From Candidatus Latescibacterota bacterium (GTDB lineage: Bacteria; JAAXHH01; JACQVL01): 11,835 bases of DNA. The DNA lies in contig JACQVL010000301.1 of assembly GCA_016209865.1 (NCBI GenBank), forward strand, positions 1 through 11,835, written 5' to 3'. A program made the translations under genes and the position numbers. Positions 7 to 11,536 of the stretch are shown in pieces (the first letter of the stretch is position 1; the number at the start of each line of letters is the position of its first letter). Under the pieces are notes generated by a model. It saw nothing but the letters and a program-made list of their open reading frames with translations. It did not search any database and was not told the origin of the DNA.

Positions 7-28
7 GGGCGGCCACACAGGGCCGCCC
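7..28. repeat. Small GC-rich palindrome downstream of the dehydrogenase gene
   Basis: GGGCGGCC (7-14) pairs perfectly with GGCCGCCC (21-28) around the loop ACACAG. The right arm continues into CCTAC and then directly into a TCGTCAC-type heptamer array. This order, palindrome then CCCCTAC then heptamers, is seen again in front of surE in reverse orientation, so I treat it as one copy of a dispersed element. It lies beyond the stop of the minus-strand dehydrogenase gene and could fold in its transcript. No run of T follows, so it is not a convincing intrinsic terminator. Confidence 0.6.
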
Positions 29-32
29 CTAC

Positions 33-59
33 TCGTCACTTGTCACTCGTCACTGCTTT
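33..59 (-). repeat. Heptamer array (3 units) abutting the dehydrogenase stop codon
   Basis: Three 7-base units on the plus strand, TCGTCAC (33-39), TTGTCAC (40-46) and TCGTCAC (47-53), are followed by TGCTTTT and the stop codon complement at 60-62. Read on the coding strand this is CCGTAAAAAGCAGTGACGAG, and the gene's TAA stop is part of it. The string closely resembles the GGTAAAAACAGTGACGAG found just beyond the stop of the barrel gene. Confidence 0.75.
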
Positions 60-1079
60 TTACGGTACCAACGCCACCTTGATCAGCTCGCCCGGTCGGT
101 CGACGAGTGTCTCGAACATCTCGACTCCCCGATCCAGGGCCTTCGGGGCGACCATCGACTTCACATCAATCTTTCCGCCCCCGATCAGGTCGAGTGAACG
201 GGCGAAATCGAGGTTCGTGTAGGCGTACGACCCTCGGATCGTCAATTCCCGGTTGACGATCGCCAGCCCGTCCAGTTCTACGTTCGACTCCGCCCCCAGC
301 CCCAAAAAGACCGCTTCCCCTCCCTGCTTGAGGAAACTCACCGCCTGACGCTGCGTCGAGGCATGTCCCACCGCCTCGACCGAGAGATCGACTCCGCGGC
401 CGTTCGTCCTCTCCATGACGGCGGCCACCGGGTCGGCAGATCGGACGTCGATCGCGGCGGTCACCCCGAACTGCTCAGCCATCCTCAGCCGGGAGGGCAC
501 GAGGTCGGTGATGAACACCTGCGTGGCCCCGATCAGACGGGCGACCTGGAGGGCCAGGAGGCCTTGAGTTCCAGCCCCAACGATGGCGACGCTCTTGATC
601 AGTCCGTGCAGACTGCGATCGAAGATGTGCAGGGCGTTCGAGAGCGACTCGATCATGCTCCCCTCGACGTCCCCGACGTGGTCGGGGAGCTTGAAGCAGA
701 GGTGGGCCGGGACGGCGACGTACTCCGCGAACGCCCCCGGACGGTCGATCCCGATGACCTTTCGGGCCGGACAGATGCTCGATCGTCCCCGCTGGCACTC
801 TTCGCACCGGCCGCAGGTGAGGATGGGGTTGATCGTGACGCGGTCGCCGATGGCGAAGCCCTCGACCTCCGGGCCGATGGCGACGACGTCGCCCGTGAAT
901 TCGTGTCCCATGATGAGCGGAGGGACACGCTTTTTGCTCTTGCCTAAGAAACCATGCAGGTCAGAGCCGCAGATGCTGGCCGCGCTGACTTTGAGGACGA
1001 CTTCGTCGGGCGCGGCCTGCGGTTCAGGAACGGCCTGAATGGCCATGTTGCGGGTACCGAGGTACATCAGGGCACGCAT
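60..1079 (-). CDS. Zinc-dependent medium-chain alcohol/polyol dehydrogenase
   Basis: This 339-residue protein is a complete member of the medium-chain dehydrogenase/reductase family and should be a cytosolic NAD(P)-dependent oxidoreductase of an alcohol, polyol or amino alcohol. Cys37 (in CGSDLHGF), His59 and Glu60 (in GHEFTG) fit the catalytic zinc site. Cys89, Cys92, Cys95 and Cys103 form the structural zinc lobe. A Rossmann fold with GAGTQG at 168-173 is followed by Asp192 at the end of the second strand, which favours NAD over NADP. The layout resembles sorbitol and threonine dehydrogenases, but the substrate cannot be read from sequence. The ATG is preceded by GGAGGAG at 7 bases. The start overlaps the upstream synthetase gene by 13 bases, so the two are probably translated from one message. 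Family is certain; specificity is unknown. Confidence 0.93.
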   Translation of the reverse strand: MRALMYLGTRNMAIQAVPEPQAAPDEVVLKVSAASICGSDLHGFLGKSKKRVPPLIMGHEFTGDVVAIGPEVEGFAIGDRVTINPILTCGRCEECQRGRSSICPARKVIGIDRPGAFAEYVAVPAHLCFKLPDHVGDVEGSMIESLSNALHIFDRSLHGLIKSVAIVGAGTQGLLALQVARLIGATQVFITDLVPSRLRMAEQFGVTAAIDVRSADPVAAVMERTNGRGVDLSVEAVGHASTQRQAVSFLKQGGEAVFLGLGAESNVELDGLAIVNRELTIRGSYAYTNLDFARSLDLIGGGKIDVKSMVAPKALDRGVEMFETLVDRPGELIKVALVP

Positions 1080-2428
1080 GAGAACACTCCTCCAAATGGA
1101 ATCACTTCATCGATCGAGGCGGCGTCGGCGAACAGCATGATCAGCCGGTCGAGGCCAAGCGCGATCCCGCCCGACGGAGGCATGCCCGATTCGAGGGCAG
1201 ACAGGAGGTCTTCGTCAAGCCTCCCGTCGTATTCCTGTTGCTCGCGCTTGACGCGAAGCTGCGCCTCGAACCGCGCGCGCTGTTCGGCCGGGTCGTTGAG
1301 CTCGGTGAACGCGTTGGCCAGTTCAAGCCCGCCGATGTACAGCTCGAACCGTTCGACGACCCGGTCCTCGCCGGGCTTCCGCTTCGCCAGGGACGGCAGT
1401 CGAGCCGGGTATTCGGTCAGGAAGATCGGCCGGTCGGTGGGTAAGAGGGGTTCGACGTACTGGATGAACAGGCGATGAAAGATGTCGTCCCATGTGTCGG
1501 CGGGACCGACGGACACGCCACGGGACTGGGCGCTTAAGCGGAAACATTTTAAGGTGGTACATTTGTGTAGGTCGATCCGGGCGGTCTCGAACAACACATC
1601 CCGGACGGTCTGCCGGGGCCAGGGCGGGCTGACGTCGATCGTCTGGCCGCGGTGTCGGATGGACGGCTCGCCGAAGAGCCGGATGGCCAGGGATGCGATG
1701 AGCTCCTCCGTCGTCCGCATGATATCATGGTAATCCGCGTACGCCTCGTACCATTCCAGACCAGTAAACTCCGGACTGTGGGTGTCCAGCCGCTCACCGT
1801 TGCGGAAGAACCGGCAGATTTGATACACTCGCTCGTAGCCAGCGGCTAACAGGCGCTTCATGTAATGCTCCGGCGACGTCTGGAGGTAGAGCGGGAATGT
1901 TTGTCCTACGTCATCCCGGTACTCCGTCCGGAACGACCGGATGGCGGGGGTGAGCTCCGGAACCCGCATCAGGGTGGGCGTGTCGACAGCCAGAAAGCCT
2001 CGCTCGTCGAAGAACTGGCGAGTGAAACGCAAGACGTCCGTCCGGAGGGCGAGGGCGGACGGGGTGATGAGTGCGGGATCGGGCGATGGCTGGAGGGACG
2101 GGGCAAGGAGACGGACACGCTGGACGGCGAGGCGATCGGACTGCATTCGTCCGGTGCATTCGATGAGATCACCCGCTTCGAGCACCGCCAAGAGCGCCTC
2201 GCTCTCAGGTTCGAGCGCGTGTGGGGAGAAACAGAGCGCGAGCAGTCCCGTCGCATCGTGAAGAGTGCCCATTCGGTCCGTTCGATCGAACGCGAGCAAT
2301 CGTCCCGATACGACGAGAGTTTCCTCTGTGTCTCCTGTCACACTCGCGTCGTGGACGGTGTGCGTCCGTCCTGATCGGGCGGAGTACAGGTCGATGCCGA
2401 GGGTGCGCAAAGTGTCGAGTCTGGACAT
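1067..2428 (-). CDS. Class II lysyl-tRNA synthetase-like protein (EpmA/GenX type) with OB-fold-like N-terminus
   Basis: The 453-residue product is a class II aminoacyl-tRNA synthetase homologue of the lysine branch. Residues about 35-110 look like an OB fold (VVSGRLLAFDRTDRMGTLHD). The catalytic core shows motif 1 near Pro151, motif 2 at 206-227 (RFFRN, then HSPEFTGLEWY) and motif 3 at 421-431 (GIALGLDRLIM, Arg428). Between motifs 2 and 3, DTWDDIFHRLF, LTEYPARLPSLAK and RVVERFELYIGGLELANAF resemble EpmA (GenX/PoxA), which attaches beta-lysine or lysine to elongation factor P. EpmA normally lacks an anticodon-binding OB domain, and LysRS is usually about 500 residues. No efp gene is in the window. 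The ATG at 2428 is preferred; a GTG six codons upstream also opens the frame. Neither has a good ribosome binding site, and the gene begins 21 bases after the surE stop, so coupled translation is likely. Lysine branch is sure, exact role open. Confidence 0.85.
   Translation of the reverse strand: MSRLDTLRTLGIDLYSARSGRTHTVHDASVTGDTEETLVVSGRLLAFDRTDRMGTLHDATGLLALCFSPHALEPESEALLAVLEAGDLIECTGRMQSDRLAVQRVRLLAPSLQPSPDPALITPSALALRTDVLRFTRQFFDERGFLAVDTPTLMRVPELTPAIRSFRTEYRDDVGQTFPLYLQTSPEHYMKRLLAAGYERVYQICRFFRNGERLDTHSPEFTGLEWYEAYADYHDIMRTTEELIASLAIRLFGEPSIRHRGQTIDVSPPWPRQTVRDVLFETARIDLHKCTTLKCFRLSAQSRGVSVGPADTWDDIFHRLFIQYVEPLLPTDRPIFLTEYPARLPSLAKRKPGEDRVVERFELYIGGLELANAFTELNDPAEQRARFEAQLRVKREQQEYDGRLDEDLLSALESGMPPSGGIALGLDRLIMLFADAASIDEVIPFGGVFSCVP
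1087..1093 (-). promoter_or_regulatory. Strong ribosome binding site of the dehydrogenase, inside the upstream gene
   Basis: GGAGGAG on the minus strand lies 7 bases before the ATG at 1079. It falls within the last codons of the synthetase-like gene. It fixes the dehydrogenase start and supports translation from a shared transcript. Confidence 0.8.
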
Positions 2429-2458
2429 CTTGTTTTTACCGACCACCGATCACCGACC
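2429..2458 (-). repeat. Heptamer array spanning the surE stop codon
   Basis: Three plus-strand units, ACCGACC (2438-2444), ACCGATC (2445-2451) and ACCGACC (2452-2458), are followed by a T-run leading into the next gene's start codon. On the coding strand the surE stop TGA (2452-2450) lies inside the array. The only bases between surE and the synthetase gene are repeat plus GGTAAAAACAAG. The same GGTSGTC units and GGTAAA string recur at the ends of two other genes. Confidence 0.75.
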
Positions 2459-3340
2459 ACGAATCATTTTCTCTAACGCTGGCACTGGAACCGTCGCGGT
2501 CTGATCGATCGTGTACGGGGTGATCGAGATAAACCCATTCACGACCGCCCATTCGTCCGTGCCGTCTGCGGCTTTCTCCAGCGTCCGAACCCGGCTCTGC
2601 GCGTAGTACACACGGCCGGATGAGGTCGTCCGTCTCTCGTACATGAATTCCAGGTCGCGATTGCTCTGACGGGTGATCCGGACGCCGTTGATGTCCCGGT
2701 CGGCGGCGGGAAGGTTGACGTTCAGGAACACCCCGGCCGGTAAGCCACTCTGGCGGATGGATTCGACCAGCGTCCGCACGAACCCGGCCGCGCGCGTGTA
2801 ATCGAGCTGAGGCGACGGCGTCCACGGCCGGTCGAGGGAGACAGCGATGGCCGGCACCCCGTTCATCGCGGCCTCGCGAGCAGCCGCCACCGTCCCGGAG
2901 CTTAAGGTCACCAGCCCGGCGTTCGTCCCGGGATTGATGCCGGAGATGACGAGGTCGGGTTTACGGCCCATCAGGGCGCGAACCCCGATGGTGACGCACG
3001 AGGCCGGGGGGACGGTGACGCTGTAGCCGAGGAGTTTCCCATCCCGCTGGTATTCGCTCACGAAAAAGGTATCCCGGAGCGCGACCCGATGGCCGGTCCC
3101 GCTGTAGTCCCGATCCGGGGCGACGATCATCACCTCGACATCCGGCAATGCGCTCAGTTCGCCGTATAAGGCGAGGAGGCCGGGCGCGCTCACCCCGTCG
3201 TCGTTCGTCAGCAGGATGCGGTATGGGGAGGACTGCGCGCGTGCGACCTCCGGGCAAAGTGCGACGATGCACAGGAGCGCCGGGAGCAAGCAGAGGCGGA
3301 CGATTGTCCGCTCAGCGAGCGGAATCGAGCATACGGGCAT
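2450..3340 (-). CDS. surE: SurE-family 5'/3'-nucleotidase with a signal peptide
   Basis: This 296-residue protein belongs to the SurE survival-protein family, metal-dependent phosphatases that remove phosphate from nucleoside monophosphates. The signature LLTNDDG places the metal ligands at Asp47 and Asp48, Ser80 in DYSGTGHR is the next expected ligand, and Asn136 in SGINPGTN completes the site. SSGTVAAAREAAMNG is also typical of the family. Before the domain is a signal peptide: hydrophobic residues about 12-29 and a cleavage-like ARA at 33-35. SurE is normally a cytosolic protein of about 250 residues, so this form probably acts in the periplasm. I chose the ATG at 3340 because GGAG lies 7 bases upstream and because the frame's earlier start (3439) falls upstream of the transcription start expected from the predicted promoter. 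The stop lies inside a heptamer repeat array. Confidence 0.9.
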   Translation of the reverse strand: MPVCSIPLAERTIVRLCLLPALLCIVALCPEVARAQSSPYRILLTNDDGVSAPGLLALYGELSALPDVEVMIVAPDRDYSGTGHRVALRDTFFVSEYQRDGKLLGYSVTVPPASCVTIGVRALMGRKPDLVISGINPGTNAGLVTLSSGTVAAAREAAMNGVPAIAVSLDRPWTPSPQLDYTRAAGFVRTLVESIRQSGLPAGVFLNVNLPAADRDINGVRITRQSNRDLEFMYERRTTSSGRVYYAQSRVRTLEKAADGTDEWAVVNGFISITPYTIDQTATVPVPALEKMIRGR

Positions 3341-3347
3341 AGGGATG

Positions 3348-3351
3348 CTCC
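3348..3351 (-). promoter_or_regulatory. Ribosome binding site deciding the surE start
   Basis: GGAG on the minus strand, 7 bases before the ATG at 3340. It supports this start over the frame's first possible start 33 codons upstream, whose extra residues would be encoded by repeat DNA. Confidence 0.6.
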
Positions 3352-3366
3352 GGGGGAAGAGCAGGA

Positions 3367-3412
3367 ACGAGTGACCAGTGACAAGCCGTAGGGGCGAGGC
3401 GGTGCCTCGCCC
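3367..3412 (-). repeat. Heptamer units plus palindrome in the surE leader
   Basis: On the plus strand, ACGAGTG (3367-3373), ACCAGTG (3374-3380) and ACAAG run into CCGTAG, then a perfect hairpin: GGGCGAGGC (3392-3400), loop GGT, GCCTCGCCC (3404-3412). Read on the minus strand the order is palindrome, CCCTAC, TTGTCAC-type heptamers, the same as at 7-53 on the plus strand. It lies between the predicted promoter and the surE start, so it would form a stable hairpin in the 5' leader of the message. Confidence 0.65.
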
Positions 3413-3423
3413 TTGTTCGCATA

Positions 3424-3452
3424 AGGGTAGTACGCTCACTCGTTACTGTCAA
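3424..3452 (-). promoter_or_regulatory. Predicted sigma-70-type promoter for the surE operon
   Basis: On the minus strand, TTGACA (complement of 3447-3452) is a perfect -35 match. After exactly 17 bases comes TACCCT (complement of 3424-3429), which keeps T1, A2 and T6 of the -10 consensus. Transcription would start about 75-80 bases before the surE ATG. The site lies between two facing palindromes. It is a sequence match only. Confidence 0.5.
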
Positions 3453-3508
3453 CCGAAATTCTGGAAGGGAAAGGCGGAAGGCTCTGAGAGGGGTCTTCGT
3501 CCCGATGC

Positions 3509-3533
3509 GGGCGATCACAAGGATCGCCCCTAC
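3509..3533. repeat. Small palindrome facing the surE leader palindrome
   Basis: GGGCGATC (3509-3516) pairs with GATCGCCC (3522-3529) around ACAAG, followed by CTAC. The right-hand edge GCCCCTAC is the mirror of the GTAGGGGC edge at 3388-3395. The two palindromes therefore face each other about 100 bases apart and bracket the predicted promoter. Confidence 0.6.
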
Positions 3534-3573
3534 ACATTACCCATCTTGATCGTCAAATCTCATGAGGTGTTGC

Positions 3574-3615
3574 TCGTCCCTCGTCACTGTTTTTACCGAC
3601 CACCGACTACCGTCT
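3574..3615 (-). repeat. Composite heptamer repeat just beyond the barrel gene stop
   Basis: Plus-strand order is TCGTCCC (3574-3580), TCGTCAC (3581-3587), TG, TTTTT, ACCGACC (3595-3601), ACCGACT (3602-3608), ACCGTCT. On the coding strand it begins right after the stop codon at 3618-3616. It consists of two GGTSGTC-like units, then GGTAAAAACAGTGACGAG, then GGACGAG. Order and spacing match the repeat at 9077-9109. Confidence 0.8.
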
Positions 3616-6273
3616 TCACACATTCCACCAGTACGCGAATTTAACCATGAACACGTTCTCAGCTTTCGCGTTCAGGAGGCGGTTGAGGGAGCGGTTCAGG
3701 CGGAACGCGCCATCGTTCTCCGTATCAGACCGGTTCTGGGTCCAGACCAGGTACAGGGTCGAGCCGGGCAGGTATTCCCAGCGGAAGACCGCGTTCCCCC
3801 GGAGGGATTTGAAGTTGAAATCCGGGTTCGACAATTTAATGGGTTTGGCCGGCCCCGGCCCATCCGGGTCGGCTTCGCGGGTCGCCTCAGAATACGTCGA
3901 GACGCCGTCTCCGTACCGGGTGAACGCAAAGCTCCTGGGACGGGCGAGTTCTTTAAACTCACGGTAATCCCCGGCGGAGAGTAGCGGCTGAGCGTAGAAC
4001 TGGAGGCTCACTTTCGGGGTGAACGTCCAGTCCAACCGGAGGCGGGCTGACAGGGACGTCTGGCTCAGGGTCGCGAACACGTACCGCTTCCCGAACGTTG
4101 CTGTCGCTAACGGGTCGTCATAGACCCCCACCCATTGGGCATGCTCGTAATTCCGCTCGAAGCGCGGCCGGACGCTGAAGGAGACGTTGGGAGCGGGTTT
4201 CCACTCGATCCGCGGGTTCACGTCCCAGTTCCACGACGCCCCTGGATACCGCTGGCCGCTTGTCCCGAGTCCGAAGACCCACGTTTTCCGGTCATCCGTT
4301 CTCGTAAAAATCTCTGCTTCCCAGCCGGGCAGGTTCAGCATAAGCGGGCCGCCGCGTGTCTGTCGATTGTCGATCGTCTCAGGGTTGTAGGCAAAGAACC
4401 ACTCTGTCGTGTAGTAATTGAGCCATCGGACGAAGCCAAAATGGAAGACGCCCGACCCTGTCGGGTTCTTGTCGAAATCATAACTCCGGAAGACCGCGCC
4501 GGCCACCTGAGCGTACCGGGTGAACCTGCCTGGGTTGACCCATTTGTAGCCGCCAGCGACATGCCCGTTGATGACGTCGCTCCGCGAGTGAAACCCGGCG
4601 TCGTTCGTGTCGAATTTGGGGTCGATCACCCCGACCGCGGCGTTCAGGAACGTGTTGCCTTTTTGCTTGTTGAGCGTGAACCGGGCGGCGTAACCGGTGA
4701 GCGAAGTGGCCGTGCTGTCCACGCTGACATGGGATGCGTCGGGGCGCTGAAAATAGTGCTGAGAGTTTTGCTGAAGGGCGATCATCCGGGCCGGGGTCCC
4801 GTGCACGTCGGTCGTCCCGGCCCATCCGGTGACCACCCAGGTCTTCTCGACATCCAGGAACGTCCAGCCGTCTACCCCGACGGCCACGGCGCCACTGTTG
4901 AGGTCATTCCTGAGCCGGTTGTCGCGGAATTGCCGGGCGGTCAGGGTAGAAAGCAGACCTAGCCCTTGCCGGGCCTGGTTGAACTCTTTCTGCGTCCGGA
5001 TGACCCCATAATGCGTCAGGGGTTCGACTTCCGCCTGGAACTGCTGGCCGGACCTGGCGAACTCGCCCGTCTCCCGTGCGGTCGTAGCATAGAGTGTGCC
5101 GAGATTCCAGTTCTGACCGACTTTCCCGGTGAGTTTTGCAGCGCCGAGGATGTGCGTCCCGACGGGTACGTCTGCGAAGTCTGCGGATGGACGGCTCCCC
5201 TGCGGAGCGCGTCCCAGACGCCGGCTGTAGAAGAACCCTGGATCGCCCCAGTTGAAACCCCAGAAGTCGTTGGCTCCTCCATGGCCGAACCCGAAGATGC
5301 TCGATCCTTCGATGAAGAACGGTCGTTTTTCCTCGAAGAATGTCTCGACATCGCTGAGGTTGACGACCGCCGGGTCGACCTCCACCTGTCCGAAATCCGG
5401 GTTCACGGTCGCGTTCAGCGTAAGGTTGCTGCCGACGCCAACTTTGAGGTCAGCGCCCATCCCCGGGACGTATTTCGAGCCACGGTTGAACGGGTTACCC
5501 GGTGCCGGATGGGTGTACTCCGCACGGGTCGTCCCGTAGGGCAGCAACTCGATGCGGCGTGGGGGCGAGATGTTCTCGATGCCGACCAGGTCGGGGAAAC
5601 GGGACACGAACCCGCTCCCGTTTTTGGGAGTGAACGCGACTGCAATTTCTTCATTCTTGCGGGCGATGTTGCGCTGGAAATTGATCCCCCAGACGTAGAC
5701 GTCCTGTTTCCGGAAGCGGAGCTGGGAATAAGGAATCCGCAGTTCAGCGCTCCAGCCGACATTATCGATGCGGACTTTGCCTTCCCAGACGCCATCCCAT
5801 GAATCATCATCCCAGTCGTCGTTGAACAGGATGCCGTCGTAGAGCGTACCGGCCGCGTTCACCCCGAAGAAAAATGCATTCCGCCGGTCGTGGTACGAAT
5901 CGATGGCGAGAAAGAACGCATCGGCGGTCAGGTCGGCATCGCGCCGGCCCAGCCGGGCGATGATTGAATCGGGCGCGGTGTCGTGCATCCGTGCGCCGAT
6001 GTAGATCGCCTCATCGTCGTACGCCACATGAACGACTGTCTGCTCGGTGGGTTGGGCACCCTCGATCGGGTCGCGCTGGGTAAAACGCGAGATGCCGTAC
6101 CCATTCTGCCAGACGGGCTCTGCGAGGAGACCGTCGATGGCGACCGGCTCCGCGAGCCGCACCGCCTGGATCGTCAGCCGGGGCGCGGACAGGGTATCGG
6201 CCGGGGTCGCGCGCACGAGACAGGGAAAAAGAAGGACAAAGAGAACGGCCAGTTTTATAGGCAGGTTTCTCAC
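3616..6273 (-). CDS. Exported CBM9-like/DUF5916 outer-membrane beta-barrel protein
   Basis: The 885-residue product starts with a signal peptide (hydrophobic 7-20, likely cleavage near VRA at 20-22). Residues about 33-190 resemble the family 9 carbohydrate-binding-like module, with IDGLLAEPVW, DDEAIYIGARMHD and WSAELRIPYSQLRF. From about 200 it matches the DUF5916 type: NFQRNIARKNEE, NPDFGQVEVDPAVVN and the hallmark FFEEKRPFFIEG at 312-323. The remainder is rich in aromatic residues and alternating strands and ends FAYWWNV, as expected of an outer-membrane barrel. These proteins are common beside secreted hydrolases, but their function is not established, so I assign none. The first codon is GTG, with GAGG 5 bases upstream; no better start is seen. 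It is flanked by repeat-filled gaps on both sides and is probably its own transcription unit, or a read-through from the aminotransferase gene. Confidence 0.88.
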   Translation of the reverse strand: MRNLPIKLAVLFVLLFPCLVRATPADTLSAPRLTIQAVRLAEPVAIDGLLAEPVWQNGYGISRFTQRDPIEGAQPTEQTVVHVAYDDEAIYIGARMHDTAPDSIIARLGRRDADLTADAFFLAIDSYHDRRNAFFFGVNAAGTLYDGILFNDDWDDDSWDGVWEGKVRIDNVGWSAELRIPYSQLRFRKQDVYVWGINFQRNIARKNEEIAVAFTPKNGSGFVSRFPDLVGIENISPPRRIELLPYGTTRAEYTHPAPGNPFNRGSKYVPGMGADLKVGVGSNLTLNATVNPDFGQVEVDPAVVNLSDVETFFEEKRPFFIEGSSIFGFGHGGANDFWGFNWGDPGFFYSRRLGRAPQGSRPSADFADVPVGTHILGAAKLTGKVGQNWNLGTLYATTARETGEFARSGQQFQAEVEPLTHYGVIRTQKEFNQARQGLGLLSTLTARQFRDNRLRNDLNSGAVAVGVDGWTFLDVEKTWVVTGWAGTTDVHGTPARMIALQQNSQHYFQRPDASHVSVDSTATSLTGYAARFTLNKQKGNTFLNAAVGVIDPKFDTNDAGFHSRSDVINGHVAGGYKWVNPGRFTRYAQVAGAVFRSYDFDKNPTGSGVFHFGFVRWLNYYTTEWFFAYNPETIDNRQTRGGPLMLNLPGWEAEIFTRTDDRKTWVFGLGTSGQRYPGASWNWDVNPRIEWKPAPNVSFSVRPRFERNYEHAQWVGVYDDPLATATFGKRYVFATLSQTSLSARLRLDWTFTPKVSLQFYAQPLLSAGDYREFKELARPRSFAFTRYGDGVSTYSEATREADPDGPGPAKPIKLSNPDFNFKSLRGNAVFRWEYLPGSTLYLVWTQNRSDTENDGAFRLNRSLNRLLNAKAENVFMVKFAYWWNV

Positions 6274-6278
6274 AGTAA

Positions 6279-6282
6279 CCTC
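6279..6282 (-). promoter_or_regulatory. Ribosome binding site supporting a GTG start for the barrel gene
   Basis: GAGG on the minus strand lies 5 bases before the GTG at 6273, directly followed by the signal-peptide codons. No in-frame ATG gives a better fit. Confidence 0.5.
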
Positions 6283-6304
6283 AATCTTCTTCAGAGTATG
6301 CTAG

Positions 6305-6324
6305 ATTCCCGCTTGCGCGGGAAT
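6305..6324. repeat. REP-like palindrome ATTCCCGC...GCGGGAAT
   Basis: ATTCCCGC (6305-6312) and GCGGGAAT (6317-6324) form a perfect 8-base stem with loop TTGC, followed by GACGGG. This ATTCCCGCN(4)GCGGGAATGAC form is a widespread dispersed palindrome in Gram-negative genomes. It lies between the aminotransferase stop and the barrel gene start. No T-run follows on the minus strand, so a terminator role is uncertain. Confidence 0.7.
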
Positions 6325-6341
6325 GACGGGCGCTTTTCCCA

Positions 6342-6362
6342 AACCCCGAACCCCGAACCCCT
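6342..6362 (-). repeat. AACCCCG heptamer array beyond the aminotransferase stop
   Basis: Three plus-strand units, AACCCCG (6342-6348), AACCCCG (6349-6355) and AACCCCT (6356-6362), begin 5 bases beyond the stop codon complement at 6368-6370. On the coding strand the stop region reads CGTAAAGGGCAGGGGTTCG. The layout (GTAAA, CAG, then heptamers) is like the other gene ends although the unit sequence is unrelated. Confidence 0.7.
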
Positions 6363-6367
6363 GCCCT

Positions 6368-7603
6368 TTACGCCAGCGCCTGACGGAGCGCGTTGATGAA
6401 CACTTCATTCTCTTCCATCGTCCCGATCGAGACGCGGATATGGTTCGTGACCTTCCACATGGCCTCCGCATTCCGGACGAACACTTTTTGCTTGGCGAGC
6501 TGCTCGACGAGCGCTTTGGGGTCCTTCACGTCCACGACGATGAAATTCGCTTCGGACGGCGTGTACGACAGGTTCAACGCCTTCAGCTCCCGGGACAGGT
6601 ACTCCCGGCCTTCCCAGACCACCTGCTTCGATTTGCGGACGTGCTCCTCGTCATCTAACGCCGCGTTGGCGGCGTACAGACTGAGCGAGCTGAACTGGGG
6701 TTCGTCATAGATCCAGAAATTCTCCATCACCTTCTGCGTCCCGATCGCGTACCCGACCCGGATACCCGGCATCCCGTAGACTTTGGAGAACGTGCGGGTC
6801 ACGAGGACGTTGGGGCGCGTCACCGCCAAATCCGCCGCGTTCTTGTAGGCCGGGTCCTTCACGAAATGGATGTACGCCTCATCGACCAGGACGGTCACCG
6901 TCTCCGGGACGCTGTCGATGAACTTCTCTAAAGCCTCGCGCGAGACGATCGTGCCGGTCGGGTTGTTGGGATTTGTGACGATGATGAGCTTCGTCTCCGC
7001 GGTGATCGCCTTGCGCATCGCGTCTAAGTCATGCCGTTTGTCGGGCGTGAGGGGCACGCGCGTGATCGTAATCGGCCGTTTTTTCCGGCGCACCATCCAG
7101 GAGGCCCATCCGCTTACGTCTCCGTAGCCGGGCTCGGCCTCGATCAGCTCCCCGCCGTTGAACAGGTACGCCATGGCGGCCAGACGCAGGAGGGCGGCAG
7201 AGCCGTTGGCGAGGAAGATGCGGTTCTGTTCCCACGCCTTCCGTTGTTCTTCTTCATTCTTGGAATCCAGTCCGGTCATCGGGTTACCATTTATTTTATT
7301 CAGCTTCGGGAAGAGTTCCTCCGGCCATCCGCCGTACCGGTTGACCTCGTGCAGGTGCTGCGTGACCGCTTCGAGCGCTTTGGGAGACGGGCCGAGCGGG
7401 TTTTCGTTGAAGTTCAGGCGGACGATCCCTTTGGGGATGCCGTAGCCCTGCACATCCGCCGCCGTCTTGCCCGCTAACAAGGCTCTGGCCATCGCGTACG
7501 GCGTAGAGCCTAACGCGACGGCCCCCAGGCTGCCCAGCATCGCTCCCTTCAAGAAGCCTCGCCGTGAGACGCCCGGCTGCATCCCCAGACCCCATGTATC
7601 CAT
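6368..7603 (-). CDS. Tat-exported PLP-dependent aminotransferase, histidinol-phosphate type
   Basis: This 411-residue protein is a fold-type I, class I/II aminotransferase closest in pattern to histidinol-phosphate aminotransferase. Residues 1-45 carry a twin-arginine signal: SRRGFLKG at 13-20, a hydrophobic stretch 21-33 and AMA at 37-39 as a likely cleavage site. The catalytic set is complete: NPNNPTGT at 211-218, Asp241 and Tyr244 in VDEAYIHF, Schiff-base Lys274 in TFSKVYGMPG, phosphate-binding Arg282, and the carboxylate-binding Arg390 in RVSIGT. Biosynthetic HisC is cytosolic, so an exported copy points to another substrate, probably an amino acid or amino-sugar-like compound in the periplasm. 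AAGGAG 8 bases upstream supports the ATG. It begins 94 bases after the HEAT gene, in a gap where I see no clear promoter. No his genes are nearby. The fold and export are firm; the reaction is not. Confidence 0.9.
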   Translation of the reverse strand: MDTWGLGMQPGVSRRGFLKGAMLGSLGAVALGSTPYAMARALLAGKTAADVQGYGIPKGIVRLNFNENPLGPSPKALEAVTQHLHEVNRYGGWPEELFPKLNKINGNPMTGLDSKNEEEQRKAWEQNRIFLANGSAALLRLAAMAYLFNGGELIEAEPGYGDVSGWASWMVRRKKRPITITRVPLTPDKRHDLDAMRKAITAETKLIIVTNPNNPTGTIVSREALEKFIDSVPETVTVLVDEAYIHFVKDPAYKNAADLAVTRPNVLVTRTFSKVYGMPGIRVGYAIGTQKVMENFWIYDEPQFSSLSLYAANAALDDEEHVRKSKQVVWEGREYLSRELKALNLSYTPSEANFIVVDVKDPKALVEQLAKQKVFVRNAEAMWKVTNHIRVSIGTMEENEVFINALRQALA

Positions 7604-7697
7604 GAATCGGTCTCCTTATCTGTATGGTTTCGATGATTCCATCGTGATCGTTCGTATCGGTTAGACTCACGGCCACGGAAAAAAGTTGGGAAAATTT

Positions 7698-9041
7698 TTA
7701 CTCTTTGAGCAGACGCTCGAGGAACGTGACCGCGTCGAGGTCGTTGCTCTTCCCCAGCCAGAACATCGCCTTCTTTCTCACTTTGATGGATGCACTACTC
7801 TGAGCGACGGCCATCAGCTTCTTGATCGCGTGTTTGGATTGGGTCTCGCCGAGGATGTCGAGAATCTCTCCCTGCACCTCTTCGTCCTGTTCTGTGTCGT
7901 ACAACTGCGAGAGCGTCGTGATGGACTGGGCATCGTTCCGGCGGGCGATCTGGCGCATCGCCCGCCGGCGCAGCTTACTGTTGTCGTCAGTCCGGGCGAT
8001 GTCGACCAGGCGTTCCTGCGCGCGCGGGCTTCCGATCTGCCCCAGGGCGGAAATCACGCCCTTCTGGATGTCAACATCCTGTTCCTTTTTGAAGATGGCG
8101 ATCAACTCATCCAGGACGGCCTCGCCGCCTTTCTGGCCCAACCCGTTGATCGCCTGGAGTCGCGCGTCGCGGTCGGGGTCGTCGCGTGCCACGGTGAGCA
8201 AGAAGTTCACGGCCGTGTCCTGGTACTCGTTATTGGCGATGGTGTCGAGGATATGTCGTTTGATCTCTCGATTCGAGACGGCTCCGTAGAGGGCCTGTAA
8301 GGTTGAGAGGGCGGCCAGGTCCCGGCTCGCGCCGATGGCGGAGACCGCTCGCCGGCGGACGGCCAGGCTCTCGTCTTCGCGGCGGGCCAGGTCGGTTAAG
8401 AACGGGGACGCGCCTCCGACCTGACCGAGCCAGGAGATGGCGGTCGTGCGGGCCCGGTCGAGGTCGGACGTCCGCGCGATCTGCTCGAGGAGGACGCGGG
8501 CCTGTTGGGCCTCATCGTGCAACGCGATGGCCATGGTCGCCCGCTCGATAGAGCTGTTCGCCTGATTCGGCTCGACCAGGCGTTTGAGCAGGGCGAGGCT
8601 CTCCTCGGATCGGGCGTGACCCAGCCAGTAGACGGGGTATCCGCTGTACGTATGGCGACGGTCGAGGTTGTACACCTCGACGCGCACAGGGACATCGGTC
8701 TTCGGCTCGTTGAGGAGGAACACCCCCAGGTTACGCGTCTCGAAGGATGAGCCGGTATTCATCATGATGTTCATCCCAGAGAACGAACTGATCGTGCCGT
8801 TGGTGTTGACGACTTCCACGTCGACGGCCAGACCGGGCCTGACGTCGAACCCGTAGGCGACCCAGAAGCGCGTGGGCGGAGAGATGGCGCGAGCTTGTGT
8901 GATCGCCGCCTCCATCCGGGCTTGCAGGGTGGGGCCTTCGATGGGACGGAATGTCGATGGCGGCTGTGCCGCCACGTACGGCGCGAGGATCAGGATGAGC
9001 ACGCATGCGGCGCTCAGACGGAGAGAAATAAGTCTATCCAT
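7698..9041 (-). CDS. Exported HEAT-repeat protein with a unique N-terminal domain
   Basis: The 447-residue product begins with a signal peptide (hydrophobic 9-22, VAA cleavage site at 23-25). Residues about 55-135 form a beta-rich-looking region (FWVAYGFDVRPGLAVDVEVV) that I do not recognise. From about 140 to the end there are eight or so HEAT-like helical repeats of about 37 residues, with recurring cores such as AISWLGQVGG, AINGLGQKGG, ISALGQIGSP and AMFWLGKSND. HEAT arrays are protein-binding scaffolds, so this is likely a periplasmic interaction protein, not an enzyme. The C-terminal 100 residues match those of the upstream gene (QLYDTEQDEEVQ against QVYDTESSEDLK), so the pair arose by duplication. 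GGGAG lies 9 bases before the ATG. The gap of 68 bases from the upstream HEAT gene holds a composite heptamer repeat. Probable member of the sigma-factor operon. Confidence 0.85.
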   Translation of the reverse strand: MDRLISLRLSAACVLILILAPYVAAQPPSTFRPIEGPTLQARMEAAITQARAISPPTRFWVAYGFDVRPGLAVDVEVVNTNGTISSFSGMNIMMNTGSSFETRNLGVFLLNEPKTDVPVRVEVYNLDRRHTYSGYPVYWLGHARSEESLALLKRLVEPNQANSSIERATMAIALHDEAQQARVLLEQIARTSDLDRARTTAISWLGQVGGASPFLTDLARREDESLAVRRRAVSAIGASRDLAALSTLQALYGAVSNREIKRHILDTIANNEYQDTAVNFLLTVARDDPDRDARLQAINGLGQKGGEAVLDELIAIFKKEQDVDIQKGVISALGQIGSPRAQERLVDIARTDDNSKLRRRAMRQIARRNDAQSITTLSQLYDTEQDEEVQGEILDILGETQSKHAIKKLMAVAQSSASIKVRKKAMFWLGKSNDLDAVTFLERLLKE

Positions 9042-9076
9042 AGATTCGTGCTCCCGTTAATGACAAAAGGGGTTGC

Positions 9077-9109
9077 TCGTCACTCGTCACTGATTTACCG
9101 ACCACCGCC
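9077..9109 (-). repeat. Composite heptamer repeat between the two HEAT genes
   Basis: Plus-strand TCGTCAC (9077-9083), TCGTCAC (9084-9090), TGATTT, ACCGACC (9097-9103), ACCGCC (9104-9109). On the coding strand it starts directly after the stop codon (9112-9110) and reads GGTGGTCGGTAAATCAGTG then two ACGAG-type units. The order, spacing and position match the repeat at 3574-3615, with the same orientation to the upstream gene. Confidence 0.8.
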
Positions 9110-10693: not shown

Positions 10694-11536
10694 TTAAAAA
10701 TCCGGGGCCACATCCAGGTTTGACGGCTGGATTGAATAGATCTGTAACTCTGCCATGATCTCGGTGCGCTGCATCCGTTCTTTGATCGACCGTACCTCGT
10801 CGTGAACCTGTTCATCCTGCAAGTTGGCGATGTCGAGCAGGAAGGGTTCAAGGCTGCTGAGGAGTTCCTCTGCCTGAAGATTCCCTTTGGCTTCCGCGTC
10901 GCGCCTGAGCAAGATGTTGGTGCTGAGGAGGTCCCTCGCCCGTTGTTTTTCGTAGTCGATCTCAGCGGCCAGCGCGCCGTTTGAGAGACGCGTGTTTCTG
11001 AACGAACGGAGCAACAACTGGACTTTCTCGATATGACTCGCCGTCTCCGCGTCCGGGAACGGGACGGTCAGGGAGGGCAGGACGGCGAATTCGTCAGCGT
11101 CGAAGCCGGGCGCCATCTCGCCGGACTGTCCCTCATCCACCGTCTGATGGCGGGTGAGTCCTTCTTGAGCGGCCATCTTTCGAGCACTCCGGTCTGCTTG
11201 TATGGACTCGTCCTGCATCACCGGAGGCTGCTCCACTTCCGGCCGACCCGTTTCGTCCTTCGCCCTTCGTCCTTCGTCCTTCATCCTTTGTCCTTCGTCC
11301 TTCACGCTGAGCGTGGTGGTCGCGCGGTCGCGGTGCCCGGCCAGCCACAGTCCCGCCGTCAGCGCGACGAGCAGTACGGCGGCCGCAGCCAGCATGCGAA
11401 AAAAGACGCGTCGGCGCGGGCGGGCGGACAGGTCGGGCACGACGCCGTCGTACCGGAACCGGCTGAGGAGGGTCTCCAGGTGTTCGACCTCAGGGTCAGG
11501 CTCTCCGGAGCCGTCCCACAGGTAGTCGTCGTTCAT
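10694..11536 (-). CDS. Probable anti-sigma factor, single-pass membrane protein
   Basis: The 280-residue product has a short cytosolic N-terminus (DYLWDGSGEPDPEVEHLETLL at 4-24 is the likely sigma-binding part), a basic cluster at 39-47 and one membrane helix at about 48-66. The rest should lie in the periplasm. It contains a 7-residue repeat (KDEGQRM, KDEGRRA, KDETGRP at 79-99), a variable linker, and a charged helical C-terminal domain (about 165-265) that may form a coiled coil. I call it anti-sigma from its position: its ATG overlaps the stop of the ECF sigma gene by 4 bases (ATGA), with GGAGG 7 bases upstream. It has no cysteines, so it is not of the zinc-finger (HxxxCxxC) anti-sigma class. 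The HEAT/TPR gene follows after 21 bases. Topology is sure; the anti-sigma role is inferred. Confidence 0.75.
   Translation of the reverse strand: MNDDYLWDGSGEPDPEVEHLETLLSRFRYDGVVPDLSARPRRRVFFRMLAAAAVLLVALTAGLWLAGHRDRATTTLSVKDEGQRMKDEGRRAKDETGRPEVEQPPVMQDESIQADRSARKMAAQEGLTRHQTVDEGQSGEMAPGFDADEFAVLPSLTVPFPDAETASHIEKVQLLLRSFRNTRLSNGALAAEIDYEKQRARDLLSTNILLRRDAEAKGNLQAEELLSSLEPFLLDIANLQDEQVHDEVRSIKERMQRTEIMAELQIYSIQPSNLDVAPDF
11255..11303 (-). repeat. Seven-unit GAAGGAC heptamer array inside the anti-sigma gene
   Basis: On the coding strand seven consecutive units read GAAGGAC, GAAGGAC, AAAGGAT, GAAGGAC, GAAGGAC, GAAGGGC and GAAGGAC. Three units make 21 bases, so the protein shows a 7-residue period (KDEGQRM/KDEGRRA/KDETGRP) just after the membrane helix. 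Gain or loss of any number of units not divisible by three would shift the frame. Confidence 0.85.

Follow-up and report, generated by a model that had tools for sequence, protein, structure and literature searches.

The intergenic heptamer arrays at gene ends in an 11,835-nucleotide (nt) stretch of a Candidatus Latescibacterota genome (assembly of 3.75 Mb, 83% complete), a stretch termed the window here, are probably the arms of lineage-specific, non-autonomous insertions bounded by inverted heptamer repeats. The repeats reported in an earlier note at the ends of five genes of the window all exist, and their positions match those given to within a few bases. Each element would be a small non-coding insertion. 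Its arms measure about 20-40 nt and are made of 2-6 units of one 7-nt word, the outer start being fixed and likewise the inner end, which is rich in A. Two such arms with a common word face each other as inverted repeats round a variable core, mostly of 10-190 nt, with the G-rich strand directed inward.

The further genomic copies anticipated in that note are abundant, with GGTAAAAACAGTGACGAG found at 120 places when up to 3 mismatches are allowed compared with 3 for the reversed control, and ARNCAGTGACGAGTGACNAGTGACGAG at 298 places compared with 0 for its control. Array statistics refer throughout to 867 kb (23% of the genome), consisting of 90 stretches picked by contig number, blind to repeats, together with the window, in which 748 genes were called by a hexamer model. 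Intergenic tandem arrays of period 7 number 211 in this sample compared with 4 of period 6 and 23 of period 8, and the period-7 arrays occur at 22.5 per 10 kb in intergenic DNA compared with 0.66 in coding sequence. All except two (209 of 211) belong to about 11 word families: A (TGACGAG), B (GGTGGTC), C (GGGGTTC), D (GGGGTCA), E (GGATTTT), F (GGGCAGT), G (GTGAAGA), H (GGACGAA), I (GGAACCT), J (GGGAAAT) and K (AGGTCAC). The number of element-bearing junctions in the genome is estimated at about 820.

The arrays share an orientation and a position relative to genes: of 194 arrays, 166 have the G-rich strand directed away from the closest gene (p = 5e-25). Near stop codons 100 arrays follow this direction and 18 the opposite one, and near start codons the numbers are 66 and 10. 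In codirectional gaps the sense arrays start at a median of 3 nt past the upstream stop and the antisense arrays end at a median of 20 nt before the downstream start. The claim of the earlier note that the repeats are tied to stop codons and point one way stands for the stops and fails where it is exclusive to 3' ends, as arms are inverted before starts in 66 of 76 cases. An inverted array that had been overlooked in the window (3368-3385) likewise shows the pattern to be mirror-symmetric and not only 3'. Facing arrays share their word in 65 of 75 cases (shuffles expect 14, with a maximum of 27), and same-word pairs are arranged G-first in 65 cases and C-first in 2. Terminal inverted repeats, as in a miniature inverted-repeat transposable element of a DDE transposase, are present in the form of the 65 same-word facing pairs. 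Arrays are fewer between divergent genes, occurring in 11 of 55 such gaps compared with 111 of 296 codirectional gaps (p = 0.013), which would fit a weak 3' effect.

Where arms of families B and A lie in close adjacency, GGTGGTC is outside TGACGAG in 12 of 12 cases, bearing out the fixed two-part order that had been described. The GGTAAA string is the inner end of the B arm. The letters CAG, listed in the note before the TGACGAG-type units, are present but do not form a separate linker, being the in-register start of the A (TGACNAG) array. One element can be nested in another, GGTGGTC round TGACGAG joined by GGTAAAA and CAG, giving the composite. The palindrome GTCATTCCCGCGAAAGCGGGAATCC (window copy 6304-6327) is common to the cores of several families, which otherwise vary, and the family F elements keep a short conserved loop.

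Orthologous junctions are available in two relatives, G001 and G013, which belong to the same order and to other families and keep several of the gene neighbourhoods. Junctions in the relatives are short, with junction length defined as the distance from stop to start. The junction between the DUF5916 gene and surE measures 275 nt in the window compared with -1 in G001 (a TAATG overlap) and is not conserved in G013, and the array-bearing junction between surE and the tRNA-synthetase-like (lysS-like) gene corresponds to 5 nt in G001 (TAG, 5 nt, GTG) and 57 in G013. Elsewhere in the genome hemA-hemC measures 124 compared with 36 in G001 and 79 in G013, lepA-lepB 88 compared with 32 and 84 (the latter with another word), lepB and the next gene 111 compared with about 0 and 34, and mrdB-lgt 275 compared with 89 and 91. 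The junction of the gene before hemB is 120 compared with 9 in G013 (no data for G001) and that of lpxB 73 compared with 24 in G001 (no data for G013). In none of the compared G001 and G013 junctions is the own word found at the same site. What remains of a junction beside a complete element has a median of 17 nt compared with 26.5 nt in element-free codirectional junctions, and this resemblance to an ordinary element-free junction is what addition of an element to a compact one would produce. The lepA-lepB junction of G013 carries an inverted heptamer pair of its own with a different word, AAGAGTTAAGAGTAC ... ACTCTTAACTCTGTACT, suggesting that two lineages acquired the same construct at one junction.

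Of 154 first arms, 96 touch the upstream stop codon, overlap it or provide it themselves. Among 48 family A cases there are 19 in which the arm extends into the gene itself or into its stop, often as CAGTGA, and proteins ending in Q are accordingly frequent at A arms (14 of 48 compared with 38 of 657, p = 2e-6). The protein encoded before hemB ends in RGQGSGVRGQ, encoded by D units that are lacking in its G013 relative, and in the window the last SurE residues, RGR, and the stop TGA (2450-2452) are encoded by the family B arm at 2433..2463. Inserted DNA can in this way rewrite gene ends, the arm becoming the last codons and the stop. As 7 is not a multiple of 3, three consecutive TGA-bearing units (21 nt) put a stop into each reading frame, which may be of benefit; many arms have TGA or TAG in their units and can stand in for a stop codon that they displace.

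The internal sequence of the arms bears on whether they were copied or grew in place. Family A arms start with VAGTGRC in 62 of 79 cases and end with GAG or GAGT in 74 of 79, and family C arms end with GGGR in 23 of 23. In the 35 four-unit A arms the non-G variant is placed mostly at units 2 and 3 (counts by unit 6, 21, 13 and 1; p = 2e-4). Identical variants stand side by side less often than chance would have it (58 compared with 80.3 +- 4 in permutations). Phase-locked ends and adjacent units less alike than expected point to copied arms and not to local slippage, and the arms appear to behave as defined sequences that were dispersed. Local polymerase slippage at duplication-prone 7-nt sites, the view of long simple sequence repeats taken by Mrazek et al. 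2007 (as cited in the available text of PMC4679880 and PMC4692102), would account for a period of exactly 7 and a unit number varying from 2 to 6. It is very unlikely here given the fixed order of the variants, the restriction of 211 arrays to about 11 words and the matching inverted words on both sides. Selection for four G-tracts forming a quadruplex would set both unit number and orientation, and the orientation rule and inverted pairs do resemble those of the GGGNATC heptamers in the available text of PMC4692102, with G-runs in families C, D and J. Runs of three or more G residues are however confined to families C, D, F and J, and a quadruplex-capable G-tract word of the GGGNATC type is not found in families A and G, which contain no GG; TGACGAG, the commonest word, and GTGAAGA follow the same rule with similar unit numbers. 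Quadruplexes are therefore not the general cause and could still hold for C and D, making an explanation of the whole set by them highly improbable. Most improbable is a telomere-like healing process in which two broken ends each received G-rich heptamers and were subsequently joined head to head round a filler core. The inward polarity (65 G-first compared with 2 C-first), the uncorrelated arm lengths and the absence of target duplication would agree with it, but some 800 junctions made by repeated breakage are implausible, a dozen words would need a dozen templates with no reverse transcriptase found, G013 has at least one pair of opposite polarity, and family F already looks like near-identical intact copies, core included, at many unrelated sites.

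A functional RNA hairpin at 3' ends or between cistrons, in which the arms pair after the stop to block 3'-5' decay, terminate or insulate and are kept by selection, is compatible with an insertional origin and on the present evidence unlikely as the explanation of the elements. The arms lie a median of 3 nt past the stop, folding of the elements is much stronger than that of shuffled sequences (median z -6.7), divergent gaps are depleted, and a related genus (G013) has the same layout with a different word at lepA-lepB. An arm nevertheless pairs with its own partner no better than with arms taken from other elements of that word (p = 0.68 for family A, 0.92 for E and 0.97 for F), so covariation is absent, no selection for pairing can be seen, and the argument from arm-arm covariation to an RNA structure is rejected. 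One-armed half-elements are also common, arms are equally oriented before starts, the 281-nt junction of the window folds like its shuffles (z -0.39), and a scan of the window for intrinsic terminators (a GC stem with a U-run directly behind it) gives no match at the arms, A arms being followed by only about three T residues. A 3'-end signal, offered as an option in the earlier note, is possible, and the depletion in divergent gaps would fit a weak effect of that kind. Complete elements, once transcribed, would form strong intergenic hairpins, which could act in mRNA decay or at mRNA 3' ends.

For the preferred reading of the arrays as insertions, copying within this lineage would have placed the elements at several hundred compact gene junctions, and they would survive where least harmful, from the stop codon to just before the next start. 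Copying and insertion would explain their origin and purifying selection their location, which would reflect tolerance and perhaps also a preference for stop codons. The alternative raised in the earlier note, an element that spreads and favours a particular insertion site, agrees with the phase-locked arms, the short word-free junctions of relatives and the stops abutted or supplied by the arms. Several observations weigh against it. Target-site duplications are absent at the elements (3.48 compared with 3.46 in shuffles), and the 83%-complete assembly contains 0 matches to the Y1/RAYT (REP-associated tyrosine transposase, where REP denotes repetitive extragenic palindromic sequences) family PF01797 and no match to the reverse transcriptase family PF00078. 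Many junctions bear one arm only, gene starts are approximate as they come from the analysis's own gene finder, and hemA-hemC in G013 has a pyrimidine-rich run of its own. No period-7 arrays are present in the 47 kb of G001 sampled, and with relatives drawn from other families gain here and loss there are inseparable site by site. A RAYT/REP origin, a reverse-transcriptase origin and a transposon with target duplication are rejected on the grounds of the missing PF01797 and PF00078 matches in this 83%-complete assembly and the missing duplication, respectively.

A broader and more doubtful proposal is that the elements represent an insertion class defined by architecture, with inverted arms that are phase-locked and about four 7-nt units long, the G-strand inward, many words, a distribution over scattered phyla and a machinery acting at or near stops. 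If so, two lineages can bear the same construct with different words at one gene junction. G013 contains 13 period-7 arrays in 100 kb, mostly of other words. Stretches with a 25-nt TGACGAG array number at least 99 and come from more than ten phyla, the complete Nitrospira moscoviensis chromosome being one of them, but in a broad sample the array is present in only 2 of 383 other genomes. In the 80 stretches analysed, 86 of 115 arrays of any word are directed away from the closest gene, a weaker result obtained with simpler gene calling. As possible heptamer words number between a few hundred and about a thousand, the occurrence of TGACGAG across phyla could be coincidence and is not claimed as proof of transfer. 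A literature search on these heptamer words gave nothing relevant.

The window holds nine genes, every one on the minus strand, encoding a zinc alcohol dehydrogenase, a class II lysyl-tRNA-synthetase-like protein, SurE, a DUF5916 protein, an aminotransferase, two HEAT-repeat proteins, an unnamed protein and a sigma factor. Table 1 lists the arms and palindromes; no Rfam match was found in the window.

Table 1. Arms, core palindromes and coding-strand strings at gene ends in the window
Feature	Sequence	Position	Strand	Remark
GTAG-type palindrome	GTAGGGGCGGCCCTGTGTGGCCGCCC	7..31	-	Directly inside TGACGAG arm; contig end (position 1) cuts element
Family A arm	CAGTGACGAGTGACAAGTGACGAG	32..55	-	4 nt past dehydrogenase stop TAA 60-62
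Dehydrogenase end, coding strand	TAAAAAGCAGTGACGAGTGACAAGTGACGAG			Only second half of composite; stop TAA part of string
Family B arm	CGTGGTCGGTGATCGGTGGTCGGTAAAAACA	2433..2463	-	SurE end; also given as GGTCGGTGATCGGTGGTCGGTAAAAACA; only first half of composite
Complete inserted junction, DUF5916 gene/surE		3341..3615	-	Order: B arm, A arm, core, inverted A arm
String after DUF5916 stop (3616), coding strand	GGTAGTCGGTGGTCGGTAAAAACAGTGACGAGGGACGAG			
Outer B arm	GGTAGTCGGTGGTCGGTA	3595..3613	-	
Inner A arm	CAGTGACGAGGGACGAG	3573..3589	-	
Core palindrome	GTAGGGGCGATCCTTGTGATCGCCC	3509..3533	-	Sequence
Core palindrome	GTAGGGGCGAGGCGGTGCCTCGCCC	3388..3412	+	Sequence
Inverted A arm, TGAC(C/A)AG array	CGAGTGACCAGTGACAAG	3368..3385	+	Near surE start
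Family C arm	GGGGTTCGGGGTTCGGGGTTTGGG	6338..6364	-	Few nt past aminotransferase stop
Aminotransferase end, coding strand	GGGGTTCGGGGTTCGGGGTTTGGGAAAAG			Also given as GTAAAGGGCAGGGGTTCGGGGTTCGGGG; word unlike A and B
Core palindrome	GTCATTCCCGCGCAAGCGGGAATC	6304..6327	-	Recurs within elements of several other words in genome
Outer B arm	GGCGGTGGTCGGTA	9096..9109	-	Past HEAT-repeat gene stop; then AATCAG, then (TGACGAG)2
Inner A arm	CAGTGACGAGTGACGAG	9076..9092	-	Far side without mirror arm
String after HEAT gene ending 9110, coding strand	GGCGGTGGTCGGTAAATCAGTGACGAGTGACGAG			

A further array in the window, at 11252-11303, is a 52-nt run of GGACGAA/GGATGAA (7.4 units) placed in-frame in a 280-amino acid protein beside the sigma factor and encoding KDEGQRMKDEGRRAKDE; family H arrays elsewhere are mostly intergenic, unlike this one. 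Two neighbouring junctions following similar signal-peptidase-like genes in stretch L135 (185 and 1103) bear similar GGATTTT elements, which suggests that gene and element were duplicated together. Intergenic arrays of period 8 lie above background (23 compared with 2-8 for most neighbouring periods), with 10 in 100 kb of G013, and are possibly a second unit length.

The surE neighbourhood shows additional features in other genomes. In G001 (stretch L297, 1-1224 and 1209-2081) the DUF5916 gene overlaps surE as TAATG and the next gene is again the synthetase-like one, which makes this order of three genes an old one. Upstream of surE in G013 (stretch L296, 2430-2515) is an inverted pair of the GAGTTCT/GAATTCT word, alike in layout and different in word. 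SurE matches in most genomes of genus g3 (G002-G010, G012 and G014) contain one in-frame TAG, which could reflect either an alignment running past the gene end or a recoded TAG.

Earlier accounts of heptamer arrays, from cyanobacteria, Xanthomonas, Beggiatoaceae and Geobacter, dealt with one or two words apiece and explained them by slippage, by quadruplexes or as sites for proteins. The short tandemly repeated repetitive sequences of heterocystous cyanobacteria are dispersed intergenic degenerate 7-nt tandem repeats with words differing from those found here. The REP sequences and bacterial interspersed mosaic elements associated with RAYT proteins are also dispersed between genes and share with the present cores the GTAG-headed palindromes, but heptamer arms are not part of REPs and the Y1 transposase is not found in this genome. 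TAACTGA repeats of Beggiatoaceae (MacGregor 2015, PMC4679880) are similar in being intergenic heptamer arrays of few units, many per genome and in scattered phyla. They differ in having a single word, direct repeats mainly before starts in one orientation with one inverted case, and no composite order. Geobacter metallireducens, according to the available text of PMC2700814, carries 49 copies of a four-unit heptamer element and another class of five-unit arrays drawn as strand-switching pairs; the words are different, they are read there as regulatory elements, and the fit to gene ends is not analysed in that text.

The closest system is that of the GGGNATC heptamers of Xanthomonas and Nostoc, which in the available text of Rehm et al. 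2015 (PMC4692102) have the near open reading frame (ORF) on the 5' side of the repeat, lying on the coding strand after stops and on the non-coding strand before starts. The two-part, stop-linked rule which the earlier note did not recognize is to this extent not new, its orientation component having been described there. That text also reports stop overlap, inverted pairs, a preference for about four units, depletion between divergent ORFs, no link to phase-variation genes and 83% of sites common to two closely related species, and favours a quadruplex. The elements described here agree with it in the period of 7, intergenic location, orientation rule, stop overlap, inverted pairs, favoured number of about four units, divergent-gap depletion and lack of a link to phase-variation genes. 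They differ in having about 11 words compared with one consensus per genome, the commonest of them without GG. Ends locked in phase, nested elements, replacement of stops and relatives with array-free junctions are found here and not reported for Xanthomonas or Nostoc in the available text. The layout is thus partly known from those genera, and new here are about 11 words under one layout together with array-free junctions in relatives. The sharing of one layout by so many words separates layout from word and argues against slippage and quadruplexes as a general cause, and the array-free orthologous junctions make the origin of such elements answerable from closely related genomes.

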